Source of the DNA: Prochlorococcus sp. AG-363-O16
GTDB taxonomy: Bacteria; Cyanobacteriota; Cyanobacteriia; PCC-6307; Cyanobiaceae
Direction: 5' to 3'
DNA length: 64,000 bases
Assembly: GCA_003280095.1 (NCBI GenBank)
Contig: QCGA01000001.1
Location: forward strand, 185,664-249,663
Position numbers and translations under genes: made by a program. The notes beneath the pieces are model-generated. The model was not told the origin of the DNA, searched no databases, and was given only the letters and a program-made list of their open reading frames with translations. Positions 861-21,864 of this stretch are shown piece after piece (positions within the stretch are counted from its first letter, which is position 1; each line of letters begins with the position of its first letter).

Positions 861-1670
861 ATGAACCAATCAAATAAAAATGAACAACCACTATCAGGAA
901 AGACTATTGTTATAACGAGAGCTCAGGAACAACAAAGTGAAGTCAAAGCTTTGTTGAAAAATCTCGGAGCAAGAGTTTTGGATCTACCAGCTCTCATCAT
1001 TGGAGAACCCAGTGACTGGGAACCCCTAGACACTGCACTTGCGGAACTCAACAACTTCCATTGGATGATCTTCTCTAGTGCGAATGGAGTTAAAGCAGTA
1101 GAAAATCGATTACAGCTATCAGGGACCTCTCTATCTCGACACCCCAAAACACTCAAAATCGCTGCTGTGGGGCGCAAAACCGCTCATCTTCTCAACAATC
1201 TAGATACTGACGTCGACTTTATCCCCCCCAACTTTGTCGCTGACAGCTTAATCAAGCATTTCCCAGTATCTGGCTTTGGGCTCAGGATTCTCCTACCAAG
1301 AGTCGAGACTGGTGGTAGGACATTGATTGCTGAAGCATTTAGACAAGCTGGAGCTTTTGTCCTTGAAGTACCCGCATACGAATCATCTTGTCCCCAAAAC
1401 ATACCTTTATCCACAGCAAAGGCGTTCTTAAATGGTGAAGTAGATGCAATCGCATTTACAAGTGGGAAAACCGCTATTCACACTGCACAACTATTAAAAA
1501 AAAATCTTCATGGAGAATCAATCAAACACTTATCAAGAATCAAAATTATCTCAATTGGCCCACAAACAAGTTTAAGTTGCAAAAAATATTTCAACAAAAT
1601 CGATCAAGAAGCCGATCCACATGACGTTGAAGGGCTTGTTCAGGCTTGCGTTAAAGCAATAAATCAATAG
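861..1670 (+). CDS. hemD: uroporphyrinogen-III synthase
   Basis: 269 aa; HemD-like motifs (TRAQEQ, FSSANGVKA, AFTSGKTA, IGPQTS). Confidence 0.85.
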   Translation: MNQSNKNEQPLSGKTIVITRAQEQQSEVKALLKNLGARVLDLPALIIGEPSDWEPLDTALAELNNFHWMIFSSANGVKAVENRLQLSGTSLSRHPKTLKIAAVGRKTAHLLNNLDTDVDFIPPNFVADSLIKHFPVSGFGLRILLPRVETGGRTLIAEAFRQAGAFVLEVPAYESSCPQNIPLSTAKAFLNGEVDAIAFTSGKTAIHTAQLLKKNLHGESIKHLSRIKIISIGPQTSLSCKKYFNKIDQEADPHDVEGLVQACVKAINQ

Positions 1671-1731
1671 GATTCATAACTTATTTTAACAACATTTAAT
1701 AAGCAGCATTTCTATTTAATTACTAAGGATT

Positions 1732-2199
1732 TTAGGACTTATATCCAGTCTGAACTAAATCTCTGAATCTATTTAAATTATTCTGCAGTTCATTGGTTAC
1801 CATTCTACTAAGTATTCTTGCTTCCATCAAAGGGGCTAAAGCTTTTGGAAGCTCATAAGAAACACTTAATTTCACAACTGTCAGGTTTGTCTCTTCCTCA
1901 TAAAAACGAGCCGCACCTTTTGTGGGCAATCCACCAACAGAAACCCATTCCAATTTTTGCTCATCAATACGTTGAGTGATCTGAGCTTTCCAGGTAAAAC
2001 GAAAGCCATTTGCTGCCAAAGTCCATTCAGTGAGGTCAGGCAGTGTTTTCGCAGTTTCATCGTCAACTGTTTTGACTGATTCAATCCACGTCATCCAACG
2101 TGGCATAGCTTCCAAATCACTCCAAACTGCCCACACCTGTTTAACAGGTGCTTGGACATTGGTCTTCACAGTGTGTTCAAGCCATTTCCCCATGTTCAA
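1732..2199 (-). CDS. SRPBCC family (cyclase/dehydrase-like) protein
   Basis: 155 aa; [32 protein letters not shown] typical of SRPBCC/polyketide cyclase family; overlaps upstream zds start by 4 nt. Confidence 0.8.
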
Positions 2200-3680
2200 G
2201 CAACCGCTGTGTTCGTAGCTAATTGAGCTTTCTTGCGAAGGATCGCTGAAGCAGCCAAATGACCACTCATAGTTGCTCCTTCCATTGAGTCAATATAATC
2301 CTGTTTGGTGTAACTGCCAGCGAGGAAAAAATTACTTATCGGAGTTGCTTGAAGAGGTCTATAAGGCTCCATTCCTGGTGCTTCCCTATATAAAGATTGC
2401 GAAAGTTTTACAACATTACTCCACACAAGATTTAGAGACATAGATGAAGGGAACAACTCGCGAACTTGAGCATCAGTATGAGTAACTATTTCTTCAATAG
2501 ATTTACTTATCCAGGGATCTCCTGGAGTCAATACACATTGAAGCAACGAACCCATCCCCTCAATCCGATAATCTTCAGGACTTGTAAGTGCTAAATCCGC
2601 AAAGCAACTAAAATCAGCATCAGCTGTATAAAGTAGATTATCCAACCCAGAAGGTTTCGATAAGTTCTTAAGAGATAAATCATTAGACAACTCTGTCACC
2701 CAGCCGTCATATCTCAGTTGTACTGTTGCGACAGGAACCGCCTGAAGTTTTTTTATATTTGCAAATTGTGAGAACCTTTCCCATTCCTTTGGAACAAGAT
2801 TCTTAATTCCTGGTACATCACATGCAGCCAGATATGCATCGGCCTGAATAGTCTTTTCGCCCTCAGATGTTCCAAAAGTCACTCCAGTAACTAAAGGTCC
2901 TTGAGAATCATCAAAATGAATTCTTCGAGCCTTATAACGCAAATGTAAGTTGCCACCCTTAGCCGTTATGTAATCGAGAATCGGAGAGGTTAACCAACGA
3001 TGAGGGGACCCCTTCAGCAGATTCAGTTTAGAAGCCTCAGTTTTAGCCGCAAACATCATGAAAATTGTGAGCATGCATCTAGCAGAAATCGACTCACAAT
3101 CAATAAATCCCAATGCATAAGCAATCGGATTCCACATTCTTTTGATGCTCTGAACACTTCCCCCATGATTAAGGAACCATGTTTGAAAGCTAATTGAATC
3201 AAGATCTCTAATTACTTGCATGGCACCTTCATAATCAACCAAACCTCTGACAATTGGACTCGTACCCAAAGCCAAAGCATTGCGCAATTTGTCAATCCAA
3301 CTCAATTGATCAGTTGTAAAAAAAGCCTTGAGCCCATTAAATGGGGCACCCAGAGGAAAGCGAAAATCAAGATCTCTAAGATCTCCTCCTTTGTTAACAA
3401 ATAAATGGGTATGGTCCTTTGGAAGGAGGTTTTCGATTGCTCCTACTTTCCGCATAAGAGCAAAAAGATTGGCGTAATTGAAGAAGAACACATGAAGGCC
3501 CATTTCAATATGGTTGCCGTTTGAATCTTCCCAACTGCCGACTTTCCCACCCAGAAACGGTCTAGCTTCATAGAGATCCACTACATGACCTTCATCGACA
3601 AGGTCTACAGCTGCTGTCAAACCAGCAAGCCCTGCACCAATAATTGCTACCCTCACTGCTTCCAAAAAAGAACCTTCCAA
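2196..3680 (-). CDS. crtQ: zeta-carotene desaturase
   Basis: 494 aa; N-terminal FAD motif [40 protein letters not shown] and zds-like [21 protein letters not shown]. Confidence 0.9.
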
Positions 3681-3766
3681 AGCACTCTATGAAAATGAAT
3701 GCAAGTTTGAATAGGGCAAAAGTCAGGATGACTTCATAAAGTGGTATTAATCCAGTCTCAGCAGTC

Positions 3767-4159
3767 ATGAGCACCCCTTCCTCTTCTGCCGCAACCCATT
3801 CAGCCAGAGACGGCAAAGGAATCATTGTTACTGAAGCAGCTATGCAGCAATTAGCCCGACTGTGTAACGAACAGGGTGATGGGCAAGTCCTAAGGGTCGG
3901 AGTTCGTTCTGGGGGTTGTAGCGGAATGAGCTACACAATGGACTTCATTTCAATCAACGAATTACAAAAGGAAGATGAGGTCTATGAATACACACCTCCA
4001 AATGGAAGAGTTTTCAAAGTAGTCTGTGATCCCAAAAGCCTCCTTTATATTTATGGAATGCAATTAGATTTCAGTACAGAATTAATTGGTGGCGGTTTTA
4101 ACTTCACTAACCCCAATGCCACGCAAACATGTGGATGTGGTAGTTCTTTCGCAGTCTAG
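3767..4159 (+). CDS. HesB/IscA-type iron-sulfur cluster assembly protein
   Basis: 130 aa; LRVGVRSGGCSGMSY and C-terminal CGCGSSF conserved Cys motifs. Confidence 0.9.
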   Translation: MSTPSSSAATHSARDGKGIIVTEAAMQQLARLCNEQGDGQVLRVGVRSGGCSGMSYTMDFISINELQKEDEVYEYTPPNGRVFKVVCDPKSLLYIYGMQLDFSTELIGGGFNFTNPNATQTCGCGSSFAV

Positions 4160-11237: not shown

Positions 11238-12641
11238 TCAGAACTGGAAAGTTGTTTTTACCAATGCGCCGGTAACATCATCAGCACCGTCCTTCTCAAT
11301 TGAGAAGAAAGCAGGTGTAACGGTGATGTTATCGCTAACAGCCATTGAGTAATAAACTTCATAGGCCATTGGGTCGTCATAACCAGAGTCATCTCTATGA
11401 CCTTCAGCTGTGCCATAAGCAAAACCAAGGGTGTTGCCTTCAGCACCAAAGTCGCTCCACACAACCCCTAAGGACCAGGTGGTTTCGTCTTCGATGTTGC
11501 TAGCATCGCTCTCCTCGTCAGGAGTTTTCCAGCCATAACCGGCATTTAAAGAAATACCGTTATCTAGATCGTACTGAGCACTGATTCCATAAGCCTCGAA
11601 ATCAGCAGCATTTGCAGAACTAGTTGTGTTACCACCGTCTGATGTGGTGTAAGCAGCAGCCACTGTGTAGTTGTCACCAATCCAGGCAATCTGGGCAGTG
11701 ATGTCATCAGAGCCTTGCTCAGTCAAAACACCCTGAGTAGCATCATCCGCTTCATCAGATACCAATACCAAGCTTGCGCTTAGATTGTCTTTTGCATAAG
11801 TGATACCTGCGCCAGCACCCATTGAAAGGTTGTAAGCATCATTAGCACCTGCGTATGTCAGGACATCCAGGATGGAATCACTTGGATAAGAACTAGGCCA
11901 TACACCAAGCATGTCGTCTTGACGAACCTTCGCACCAACAGTTGCTGTTAGGTTGTCACCAACAGGGAACTGGTAATAAGCTCTATGAACTTCGAGGTTG
12001 TCAGAGCTGTTGAAAGCAGTTTCCAACAATGCAGCGCCATTGAAAGGACCGCTGACGTTACCCGCACGTAGTGTTGTCTTTAAAAGATCTTCACCGGTGA
12101 AGCTGCTATCAAGACTCAACTTTGTGTCGTACTGGAAGGTGACAGCTTCGTTGTTTGAAACTTCGTCAACACCACCAACGATAAAGGCAGTAGTTCCAGA
12201 AAGCTTAGTGGTAGTCGAAAACTGAGAAGCTCCAAACTCACCAACCTTGGCTTCTAAGCCATCAACACGTCCCCTGATAGTTGCAAGTTCAGGAGCAAAT
12301 TCTTTAAGAAGACGACGCTCAGAATCAGTGATTTCAGCAACGCTGTCGAGGCAAGAATTAACGAGAGCAGCAGCCTCATAACGAGTCATAGCCCTGTTGC
12401 CATCAAAACTGCTGCCAGGAGTACCAGCAACACAGCCATAGCGCTCAACTAAGCTGGAAAGTGCCTGATAGGCCCAGTCAGTAGGGCGTACATCAGAAAA
12501 CTGAGAGACACTGGTTACTTGCTCAGTAGCGGCCGAATAATCGGACATGCCTTCGAGATTCAAGTCTGCAGCTGTAGCAGCCATTGGAGCCATTAGGCCC
12601 AACGCCGCAGGTGCTACCAGCAATTGCCGGAAGAATTTCAT
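11238..12641 (-). CDS. outer membrane porin with SLH domain (cyanobacterial OprB/Som type)
   Basis: 467 aa; signal peptide, SLH segment (FSDVRPTDWAYQALSSLVERYGCVAGTPGSSFDGNRAMTRYEAAALVNSCL), beta-rich body, C-terminal F (VKTTFQF). Confidence 0.9.
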   Translation of the reverse strand: MKFFRQLLVAPAALGLMAPMAATAADLNLEGMSDYSAATEQVTSVSQFSDVRPTDWAYQALSSLVERYGCVAGTPGSSFDGNRAMTRYEAAALVNSCLDSVAEITDSERRLLKEFAPELATIRGRVDGLEAKVGEFGASQFSTTTKLSGTTAFIVGGVDEVSNNEAVTFQYDTKLSLDSSFTGEDLLKTTLRAGNVSGPFNGAALLETAFNSSDNLEVHRAYYQFPVGDNLTATVGAKVRQDDMLGVWPSSYPSDSILDVLTYAGANDAYNLSMGAGAGITYAKDNLSASLVLVSDEADDATQGVLTEQGSDDITAQIAWIGDNYTVAAAYTTSDGGNTTSSANAADFEAYGISAQYDLDNGISLNAGYGWKTPDEESDASNIEDETTWSLGVVWSDFGAEGNTLGFAYGTAEGHRDDSGYDDPMAYEVYYSMAVSDNITVTPAFFSIEKDGADDVTGALVKTTFQF

Positions 12642-12661
12642 TTAGATACCTCACACAGTAT

Positions 12662-12785
12662 TAGGCGCATTACGCCTATTTAATATCTTGGGACCTCATG
12701 TGACTTTTAGCACATCTTTATGTGCCAGAATTATCGATGGTATAGAGATAATCCGAAGTAGCTAAAGGTCCCAAGATATTAAATA
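12662..12785 (-). promoter_or_regulatory. Structured leader element or sRNA upstream of porin: 20-bp outer stem, two inner hairpins, and one hairpin near the RBS
   Basis: Perfect inverted repeat 12677-12696 / 12766-12785 (TATTTAATATCTTGGGACCT / AGGTCCCAAGATATTAAATA); inner hairpins 12708-12727 and 12728-12754; extra hairpin 12662-12678 (TAGGCG/CGCCTA). Confidence 0.6.
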
Positions 12786-13006: not shown

Positions 13007-14638
13007 ATGTTTACAGGGAACAACCCTAAAGACACAAAAGCACCTCTTGGATGGTTAATTCTACTTTGGCTACTGGGATGCATTCTCGCTCTAACAAAAC
13101 TTGGATCCTTACCGCTGAGAGATTTTGATGAAGCCACTGTTGCAAGAGTGGCTTTTGAAATAAGCCAACAGACTGGAATAGACCGTCTGTTGCCAACGCT
13201 ATGGGGAGACTCCTACCTCAACAAACCGCCAGGACTACACGGGCTTATCGCTATTGCGATACAACTTAGGAACATTACGCATCCAATATCTAAATTACCT
13301 TCCGAACAGATACTCCGATTAGTTCCAGCACTCTTATCGACTCTAATAATTCCAATCGGTGGGTTAATTCAATGGAAACTGAAACCTAACAACCGAACTT
13401 GTTCTATCACTACTGGGGCAATTCTTCTAACACTCTTACCCATCGCAAGGCATGGTCGATTGGCAATGCTAGATGGAACTCAGCTAACTGCAATGGGACT
13501 GTTGTGGTTACTGATTCTTAGCCTAAATAATTCTCAAATGGATCGATGGAAGGCTCTTGGTATAGGTATTGCTACTAGCAGCATGCTTTTACTGAAGGCT
13601 CCTTTATTTTTGCCAGCCACTGTTGCCGCATTTATCCCGTTTCATTTAGAAGGTAATTTGAGGCGTTTTTGGAGTTGGCCTACCCTGACTTGGTTAAGCA
13701 TTGGTCTCTTACCGGGCATAGGTTGGCATATTTGGCATTACTTTCAACGTGGCGCAGGAGCACTGTGGCTTTGGACAGGAGATGGTGCAGGACGAGTTCT
13801 TTTTGACATTGGAGAAGGAAGTGATCTTGGCTGGAAAGTCCCTATTGTCGAAATCTTAGAAGGAGGGTGGCCGTGGCTTGTACTTTGGCCTTTTGCAATA
13901 GCTTTGGCCTGGAAAGAAAGAAACAGCCGTTGGGGAAGATGGACCCTAAGCTCACAAATAGTATTGGCCATATCAATCCTCCCGCTAAAAACTCAACTAC
14001 CCTGGTATAGCCATCCTCTTTGGCTACCAATCTCATTACTATGTGCCAGCCCACTTACAAGGATTGTTGAAAATACACATGGATTAAACGAAATTCCAGG
14101 TAAGAATATTTTAAAAAAAATCCCAATTCTTTGGTTCAGCCTTGGAATTCTGCTCTTGATGTTTGGGGTTTTAGGTTTTTCAAAACCACTAATCATTCTG
14201 CGCCCTTATCGCTACATAGCACTTGCCGTTGGAGCTGGTTGGGGCATTGGTGGATGGTTACTATGCAATTCATCTGAAAACTATCGTCGAAAAGGTTTGA
14301 TCTGTCTAATCGCTGGAAACCTTGCAGGACTATGTCTTCTAATGAATTCACCTTTGTGGTTATGGGAACTAAATGAAAATTGGACAGTAAAACCAATCGC
14401 TGCATTAGCGAATAAAGCCGAAGGCTATGAAACCTTCATTGATGGGAGTCACGAAAGACCTAGTCTCAACTGGTATGCAGGCAAAAGAATACGAACATGG
14501 ACTCCGTCTATAAACGCACCCTCTATTCTGAGTCAAAACCCGTCAAAGGTAATGAATCTCATGCCTCAAATGAACTGCAAGGTAACTGAAAAAGAAGGAA
14601 CATGGAATTTACTAATTTGTTCATCTCCCCGACCCTAA
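13007..14638 (+). CDS. ArnT-like/PMT family membrane glycosyltransferase
   Basis: 543 aa multi-TM; LPLRDFDEATVARVAFEI and LNKPPGLHGLIAIAI motifs of GT83/PMT type. Confidence 0.75.
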   Translation: MFTGNNPKDTKAPLGWLILLWLLGCILALTKLGSLPLRDFDEATVARVAFEISQQTGIDRLLPTLWGDSYLNKPPGLHGLIAIAIQLRNITHPISKLPSEQILRLVPALLSTLIIPIGGLIQWKLKPNNRTCSITTGAILLTLLPIARHGRLAMLDGTQLTAMGLLWLLILSLNNSQMDRWKALGIGIATSSMLLLKAPLFLPATVAAFIPFHLEGNLRRFWSWPTLTWLSIGLLPGIGWHIWHYFQRGAGALWLWTGDGAGRVLFDIGEGSDLGWKVPIVEILEGGWPWLVLWPFAIALAWKERNSRWGRWTLSSQIVLAISILPLKTQLPWYSHPLWLPISLLCASPLTRIVENTHGLNEIPGKNILKKIPILWFSLGILLLMFGVLGFSKPLIILRPYRYIALAVGAGWGIGGWLLCNSSENYRRKGLICLIAGNLAGLCLLMNSPLWLWELNENWTVKPIAALANKAEGYETFIDGSHERPSLNWYAGKRIRTWTPSINAPSILSQNPSKVMNLMPQMNCKVTEKEGTWNLLICSSPRP

Positions 14639-21619: not shown

Positions 21620-21647
21620 TGGTGAAAGCTAGGTTCTTATGGTTCAT

Positions 21648-21719
21648 TCCTCGGTAGCTCAGCGGTAGAGCGGTCGACTGTTAATCGATTGGTCGCAGGT
21701 TCGAATCCCGCCCGGGGAG
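21648..21719 (+). tRNA. tRNA-Asn (GTT)
   Basis: 72-nt cloverleaf: acceptor TCCTCGG/CCGGGGA, D-arm GCTC..GAGC, anticodon loop CTGTTAA, T-loop TTCGAAT; no encoded CCA. Confidence 0.95.
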
Positions 21720-21726
21720 TTTCAAC

Positions 21727-21759
21727 AAAAAAACCACAGAATGAAACTGTGGTTTTTTT
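21727..21759 (+). terminator. Rho-independent terminator after tRNA-Asn
   Basis: AAAAAAACCACAGAATGAAACTGTGGTTTTTTT hairpin with T-run immediately 3' of the tRNA. Confidence 0.85.
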
Positions 21760-21864
21760 GTTTCGTATTTCTAAAAATCCACAACAGAGCATGGACCGAA
21801 TTGGAAGACTTCCTAAAGAGAAATACCAAGGGATAAAGACCTGGAAAAGGCCATATCAATGTCG

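Follow-up and report, generated by a model that had tools for sequence, protein, structure and literature searches.

A putative start-site hairpin beside the Yfr1 site in picocyanobacterial porin leaders, and a neighbouring 20-bp inverted repeat found in one genome

The window analyzed here (the whole stretch of DNA, 64 kb in length) comes from the draft assembly of Prochlorococcus sp. AG-363-O16 (1.35 Mb, 64% complete). Positions 11238-12641 of its minus strand encode a 467-aa outer-membrane porin of SLH/OprB type, a som-family protein matching NCBIfam NF033921 ('iron uptake porin'), and a gene at 13007 is divergent from it. Reading upstream from the porin in its own sense, the minus strand carries the Shine-Dalgarno-like sequence GUGUGAGG (12649-12656), an AUACU spacer (12657-12661) and a small hairpin, UAGGCG-UAAUG-CGCCUA (12662-12678), followed by the downstream arm (12677-12696) of a perfect 20-bp inverted repeat, the upstream arm of which lies at 12766-12785 after a 69-nt spacer. 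A candidate -10 box, GATATT (12682-12687), is located inside the downstream arm, and two putative operators (12698-12715 and 12720-12741) are located between the arms. The closest relatives of the porin in the genome collection are encoded by Prochlorococcus single-cell genomes, followed by Cyanobium and Synechococcus. A picocyanobacterial porin was also found on a contig titled Bifidobacterium breve MAG (L109, CALPNT020000209.1), where the species label is evidently a binning or labelling error.

The 20-bp repeat, the small hairpin and two inner helices had been pointed out in an earlier note on this DNA, and all of them are present. Inner helix 1 pairs 12708-12715 with 12720-12727, and inner helix 2, which reads GGATTATC-N11-GATAATTC on the minus strand, pairs 12728-12735 with 12747-12754; each contains one G-U pair in the minus-strand RNA. 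The large repeat is not a chance product. No longer perfect pair exists in the window at distances of at most 300 nt, and a search for its 20-mer with up to three mismatches, for which 0.02 matches are expected in the window, returned only the two arms. The minus-strand fold of the region reaches -57.7 kcal/mol (z = -7.3), a value equalled by none of 200 shuffles, and the plus-strand fold is nearly as stable (z = -5.9); both strands fold well because one long perfect repeat dominates. Elsewhere in the window, a perfect inverted repeat of 16 bp around a 7-nt loop (21724-21762) directly follows tRNA-Asn (21647-21720) and is probably the terminator of that gene.

The central question is which of these structures is kept in related genomes. 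For the small hairpin, 99 picocyanobacterial porin starts with a GTGAGG site were reduced to 82 upstream regions less than 85% identical to each other, and a perfect stem scoring at least 14 was sought in the 34 nt above GTGAGG. Such a strong stem occurs in 72% of the 82 leaders, versus 7% of dinucleotide shuffles and 5-15% of control windows further upstream; about a quarter of the leaders lack a strong hairpin under this strict rule. The stems are formed by 33 distinct strands (for example GGCGC, AAGCCCT, GCTTGA, TACTAGT, GAGAC and ACTTCC), and the distance from hairpin to GUGUGAGG is usually 3-8 nt and extends up to about 14 nt. A covariance model was then built from 11 relatives of equal geometry with the window excluded; its best match in the AG-363-O16 genome was the window site, and two other porin genes came next. 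In the model-fitted alignment, pairing amounts to 98.9% (slid controls, 25-64%), and double changes are found at all five pairs, in 27 cells compared with 3.4 in shuffles; since this alignment was fitted to the structure, the unaligned shuffle test is the stronger evidence. Taken at the level of sequence comparison, the small hairpin is an RNA structure that is kept and covaries across porin leaders. A class-wide search of 243 genomes under strict filters gave matches with E <= 0.001 within the same family only, with a model that favours GGCGC stems and missed the window site; thus, we make no claim beyond the picocyanobacteria.

The position of the hairpin relative to the promoter can be judged from the same leaders. 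In promoters aligned on the first base of the hairpin, A occupies position -11 in 57% and T occupies position -7 in 67%, and A and T at these two spots are the invariant positions of a -10 box. Thirty-two of the 63 aligned promoters carry such a box, at a distance of 12 nt from the hairpin. Split by stem type, a -10 hexamer at offsets of 10-14 nt was detected in 8 of the 28 promoters with GGCGC stems (control windows, 0-1) and in 24 of the 35 whose stems differ from GGCGC (control windows, 0-5). The GATATT of the window matches the hexamer at only four of six positions. Given a -10 box 12 nt before the hairpin, the porin mRNA probably starts at the hairpin foot, at about 12676 (give or take 2 nt), and would therefore retain no more than the final few bases of the lower repeat arm.

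Above the -10 box, the downstream operator (12698-12715, minus strand) is a CRP-type pair of half-sites, ATGTG-CTAAAAGT-CACAT, which has no other exact match in the genome. The upstream operator (12720-12741, minus strand), ACCATCGATAATTCTGGCACAT, corresponds to the family consensus GCCATTGTGNNTTCTGGCACA, with the right half conserved and the left half degenerate here. Among the porin promoters, copies of the motif TTCTGGCACA are found in both Prochlorococcus and GC-rich Cyanobium at a distance of 69-81 nt upstream of GTGAGG, usually within GGCCATTGTGNNTTCTGGCACA, that is, TGTG-N8-CACA. Exact CTGKCACA was found 34 times in the porin sense and never on the opposite strand. The spacing is fixed as well: TGTG-Nk-CACA with k = 8 is present in 23 of 82 promoters, versus 0-3 at any other spacing, and NtcA-type GTA-N8-TAC is present in 14 of 82, versus 0-2 at other spacings. 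In the window, the conserved half-site TTCTGGCACAT adjoins ATGTG-N8-CACAT, and the right half-site of the upstream operator and the left half-site of its downstream neighbour face each other. Two such facing half-sites yield the 'helix' at 12708-12727, which is thus better explained as part of a putative CRP-type DNA operator than as an RNA helix.

Genes for candidate regulators are also available, as both a PtrA-like protein and NtcA are encoded in the AG-363-O16 genome. At locus L155, a second porin gene (2297-3826, plus strand) has as its divergent neighbour a PtrA-like Crp/Fnr regulator (1446-2066, minus strand), which matches NF053664 with E = 5e-70 but falls short of the equivalog cut-off; the pair lies at about 111945-114325 of G000:C1, and in three relatives (G001, G007 and G016) PtrA-like regulator matches are likewise located near a porin. 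Several paralogous porins (L012, L014, L016, L017, L023 and L105) carry NtcA-type GTA-N8-TAC where others have TGTG-N8-CACA, which suggests that porin paralogues may be split into nitrogen-wired and CRP-wired copies. In Synechococcus sp. 8F6 (L055), a 22-bp operator, GGCCATTGTGCGCACTGGCACA, occurs in about five tandem repeats 70-160 nt above the porin GTGAGG.

Can the hairpin or the large repeat be explained in another way? Reading the small hairpin as an intrinsic terminator or attenuator placed closely upstream of the porin ribosome-binding site can draw on some relatives in which T-runs follow the stem, as in AAGCCCT-TATA-AGGGCTTTTTT of L019. However, such a run is missing in the porin sense from most leaders, including that of the window, and with a -10 box 12 nt above it the hairpin would stand at +1, a position from which no longer leader could be terminated; we regard this reading as very unlikely. 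The earlier note had dismissed an ordinary terminator on the grounds that no T-run follows either arm, which is correct for the large arms. On the plus strand, the small hairpin is followed by TTTAATATCT and yields a terminator-like score, a weak point in favour of a terminator. The other proposal of that note, a large RNA folded as a three-way junction on the 20-bp stem, either a leader that governs the porin or an sRNA, draws on the very stable minus-strand fold and on a perfect stem far beyond chance. Its parts are nevertheless not retained: when six orthologous upstream regions are aligned, with the window among them, 54% of cells are paired in the outer stem and 47-50% in helix 12728-12754. 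None of the other porin promoters among 79 has a comparable long-range repeat (score of 46 in the window, 22 for the next best), and the 79 show no excess of such repeats overall (mean score of 15.0 versus 14.8 in shuffles); an imperfect arm pair in one orthologue (L005) is suggestive in its single fold. At the gathering score, tRNA was the sole Rfam match in the window, and with relaxed thresholds the best match at the site was a chance miRNA (E = 9). Moreover, the predicted transcription start lies downstream of nearly the whole repeat. The argument that G-U pairs indicate a minus-strand RNA concerns single pairs only, and the homologues do not bear it out. The large repeat lacks the conservation by which function would be judged; a three-way-junction RNA on this scale finds no support, and we consider it very unlikely. 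What remains of the leader idea is the small hairpin, conserved with compensatory changes, and the note is borne out in treating the region as cis-regulatory for the porin and in giving weight to a hairpin close to GAGG/ATG.

What, then, is the 20-bp repeat? The earlier note had named many genomic copies as a sign of a repeat element, and a MITE- or REP-like element does not fit the single copy: no further copy exists in the 1.35-Mb assembly, and across 398 family genomes the operator core turned up once, in G058, all other matches being short and at chance level. The single copy in a single genome, the lack of a target duplication around the repeat and the incompleteness of the draft assembly would all fit a functionless mutational by-product (an inverted duplication by template switching) or an assembly error, which we hold to be somewhat more probable than the converse. 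Against the assembly-error variant, an amplification chimera is expected to mirror beyond 20 bp, and here both flanks are unrelated. A functional alternative is a bidirectional promoter of symmetric layout: the upper arm would give a -10 box to the divergent gene at 13007, and a central CRP-type operator would be common to both directions. The arms do hold GATATTAAATA at the mirror positions 12682-12687 and 12775-12780, and on the plus strand the upper arm mirrors the -10 region (GATATT at 12775-12780). A possible start for the divergent gene would then lie at about 12787, giving it a leader of about 220 nt. On the other hand, no homologue shows the repeat and the operator is off-centre between the arms, which makes this arrangement unlikely. 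Our simplest guess is that the -10 region was duplicated in inverted orientation and that the copy perhaps serves the divergent gene as a mirror promoter; the repeat is a lineage-specific oddity. The by-product reading covers the 20-bp repeat only and is compatible with a promoter and short leader as the explanation for the rest.

In tandem second porins (L063:3346, L068:3904, L069:4122 and L081:2666), a U-rich stretch (for example GCTTCCCTAGGGAAGCTTCCTCTTTTTG) separates the leader hairpin from GTGTGAGG, and in these copies the hairpin may double as the terminator of the upstream porin.

Another important element of the leader is GUGUGAGG itself, which over 8 nt is perfectly complementary to the Yfr1 motif CCUCACAC and is placed at the ribosome-binding site, as expected of a Yfr1/Yfr10 target. 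A Yfr1 gene with its terminator is present in the same genome (G000:C15:5927), and the predicted accessibility of GUGUGAGG in the short leader is only about 0.4. A switch in which CACAT sequesters GUGUGAGG was set aside because, given the predicted start, CACAT lies outside the mRNA. Further copies of ACTCCTCACAC were detected (L140, L141, L142, L144 and G000:C44), those of L140, L141 and L144 in look-alike hairpin contexts, which suggests that a multi-copy Yfr10-like sRNA family may exist beside the single Yfr1.

Together, these data make it likely that the porin is expressed from a CRP-family-controlled promoter with a short leader, in which a 5'-terminal hairpin stands beside the Yfr1 target. 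A CRP/FNR-family regulator, PtrA-like or NtcA, would bind the TGTG-N8-CACA type dyads at 12698-12741, and RNA polymerase would use the GATATT box and start at about 12676. The resulting mRNA would consist of the small hairpin, a short spacer and GUGUGAGG, the latter acting as ribosome-binding sequence and target of the sRNA Yfr1/Yfr10 at once. Most likely, the hairpin would shield the 5' end from decay and hold the ribosome/Yfr1 site in a domain of its own, and the 20-bp repeat would be a lineage-specific inverted duplication of the -10 region. More tentatively, and with the odds slightly against it, picocyanobacterial porin mRNAs may form a previously undescribed 5'-leader family, in which a variable hairpin at +1 above GUGUGAGG acts as a joint mRNA stabilizer and sRNA-docking module, with CRP- and NtcA-type operators swapped among paralogues so that different porins are wired to different nutrients. 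Porins decide nutrient entry into the ocean's most abundant photosynthetic cells, and most of what is known of their control concerns one sRNA. In most of the leaders examined, a covarying hairpin, putatively at the start site, lies by the Yfr1 site; together with CRP- or NtcA-type operators of fixed spacing, it provides a testable model that combines transcriptional and post-transcriptional control. The locus also illustrates that a spectacular inverted repeat of one genome can mask a modest, truly conserved structure beside it.

Three known systems resemble this arrangement. The E. coli ompA mRNA has a 5'-terminal stabilizing stem-loop, and in both cases the message of an outer-membrane protein begins with a short 5' stem and carries the ribosome site just below it; this is a likeness only and not homology, and the stabilizing role of the porin hairpin is putative. 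The cyanobacterial CRP/FNR operators (CRP consensus TGTGA-N6-TCACA; PMC2633013) share with the porin promoters the 8-nt dyad spacing, and here the half-sites are conserved in a sense-specific manner and the NtcA and PtrA-like genes are present. In classical cyanobacterial CRP/NtcA promoters, however, the site is centred at -41.5 with the -10 box about 22 bp below (PMC2633013), whereas in the window the operator centres lie about 30 and 52 nt before the predicted start, and the distances to GATATT are 11 and 33 nt. The classical activator layout is thus not present, and we suggest at most that the site works like a CRP/FNR-family operator, without claiming membership in the classical activator class.

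The closest parallel is provided by the Yfr1-regulated porins of Prochlorococcus MED4 (PMM1119/PMM1121), which belong to the same porin family and have GUGUGAGG beside the start codon; a Yfr1 gene is likewise present in the AG-363-O16 genome. Yfr1 represses PMM1121 via its 5'UTR in an E. coli reporter (PMC6778093); repression is thereby established for MED4, whereas the AG-363-O16 porin is a predicted target only. In the accessible portions of the literature on these MED4 porins, we found no description of the conserved leader hairpin. The PMM1121 porin mRNA is listed among the longest-lived in MED4 (PMC2897979), and such a long life would fit a putative 5'-terminal stabilizing hairpin.
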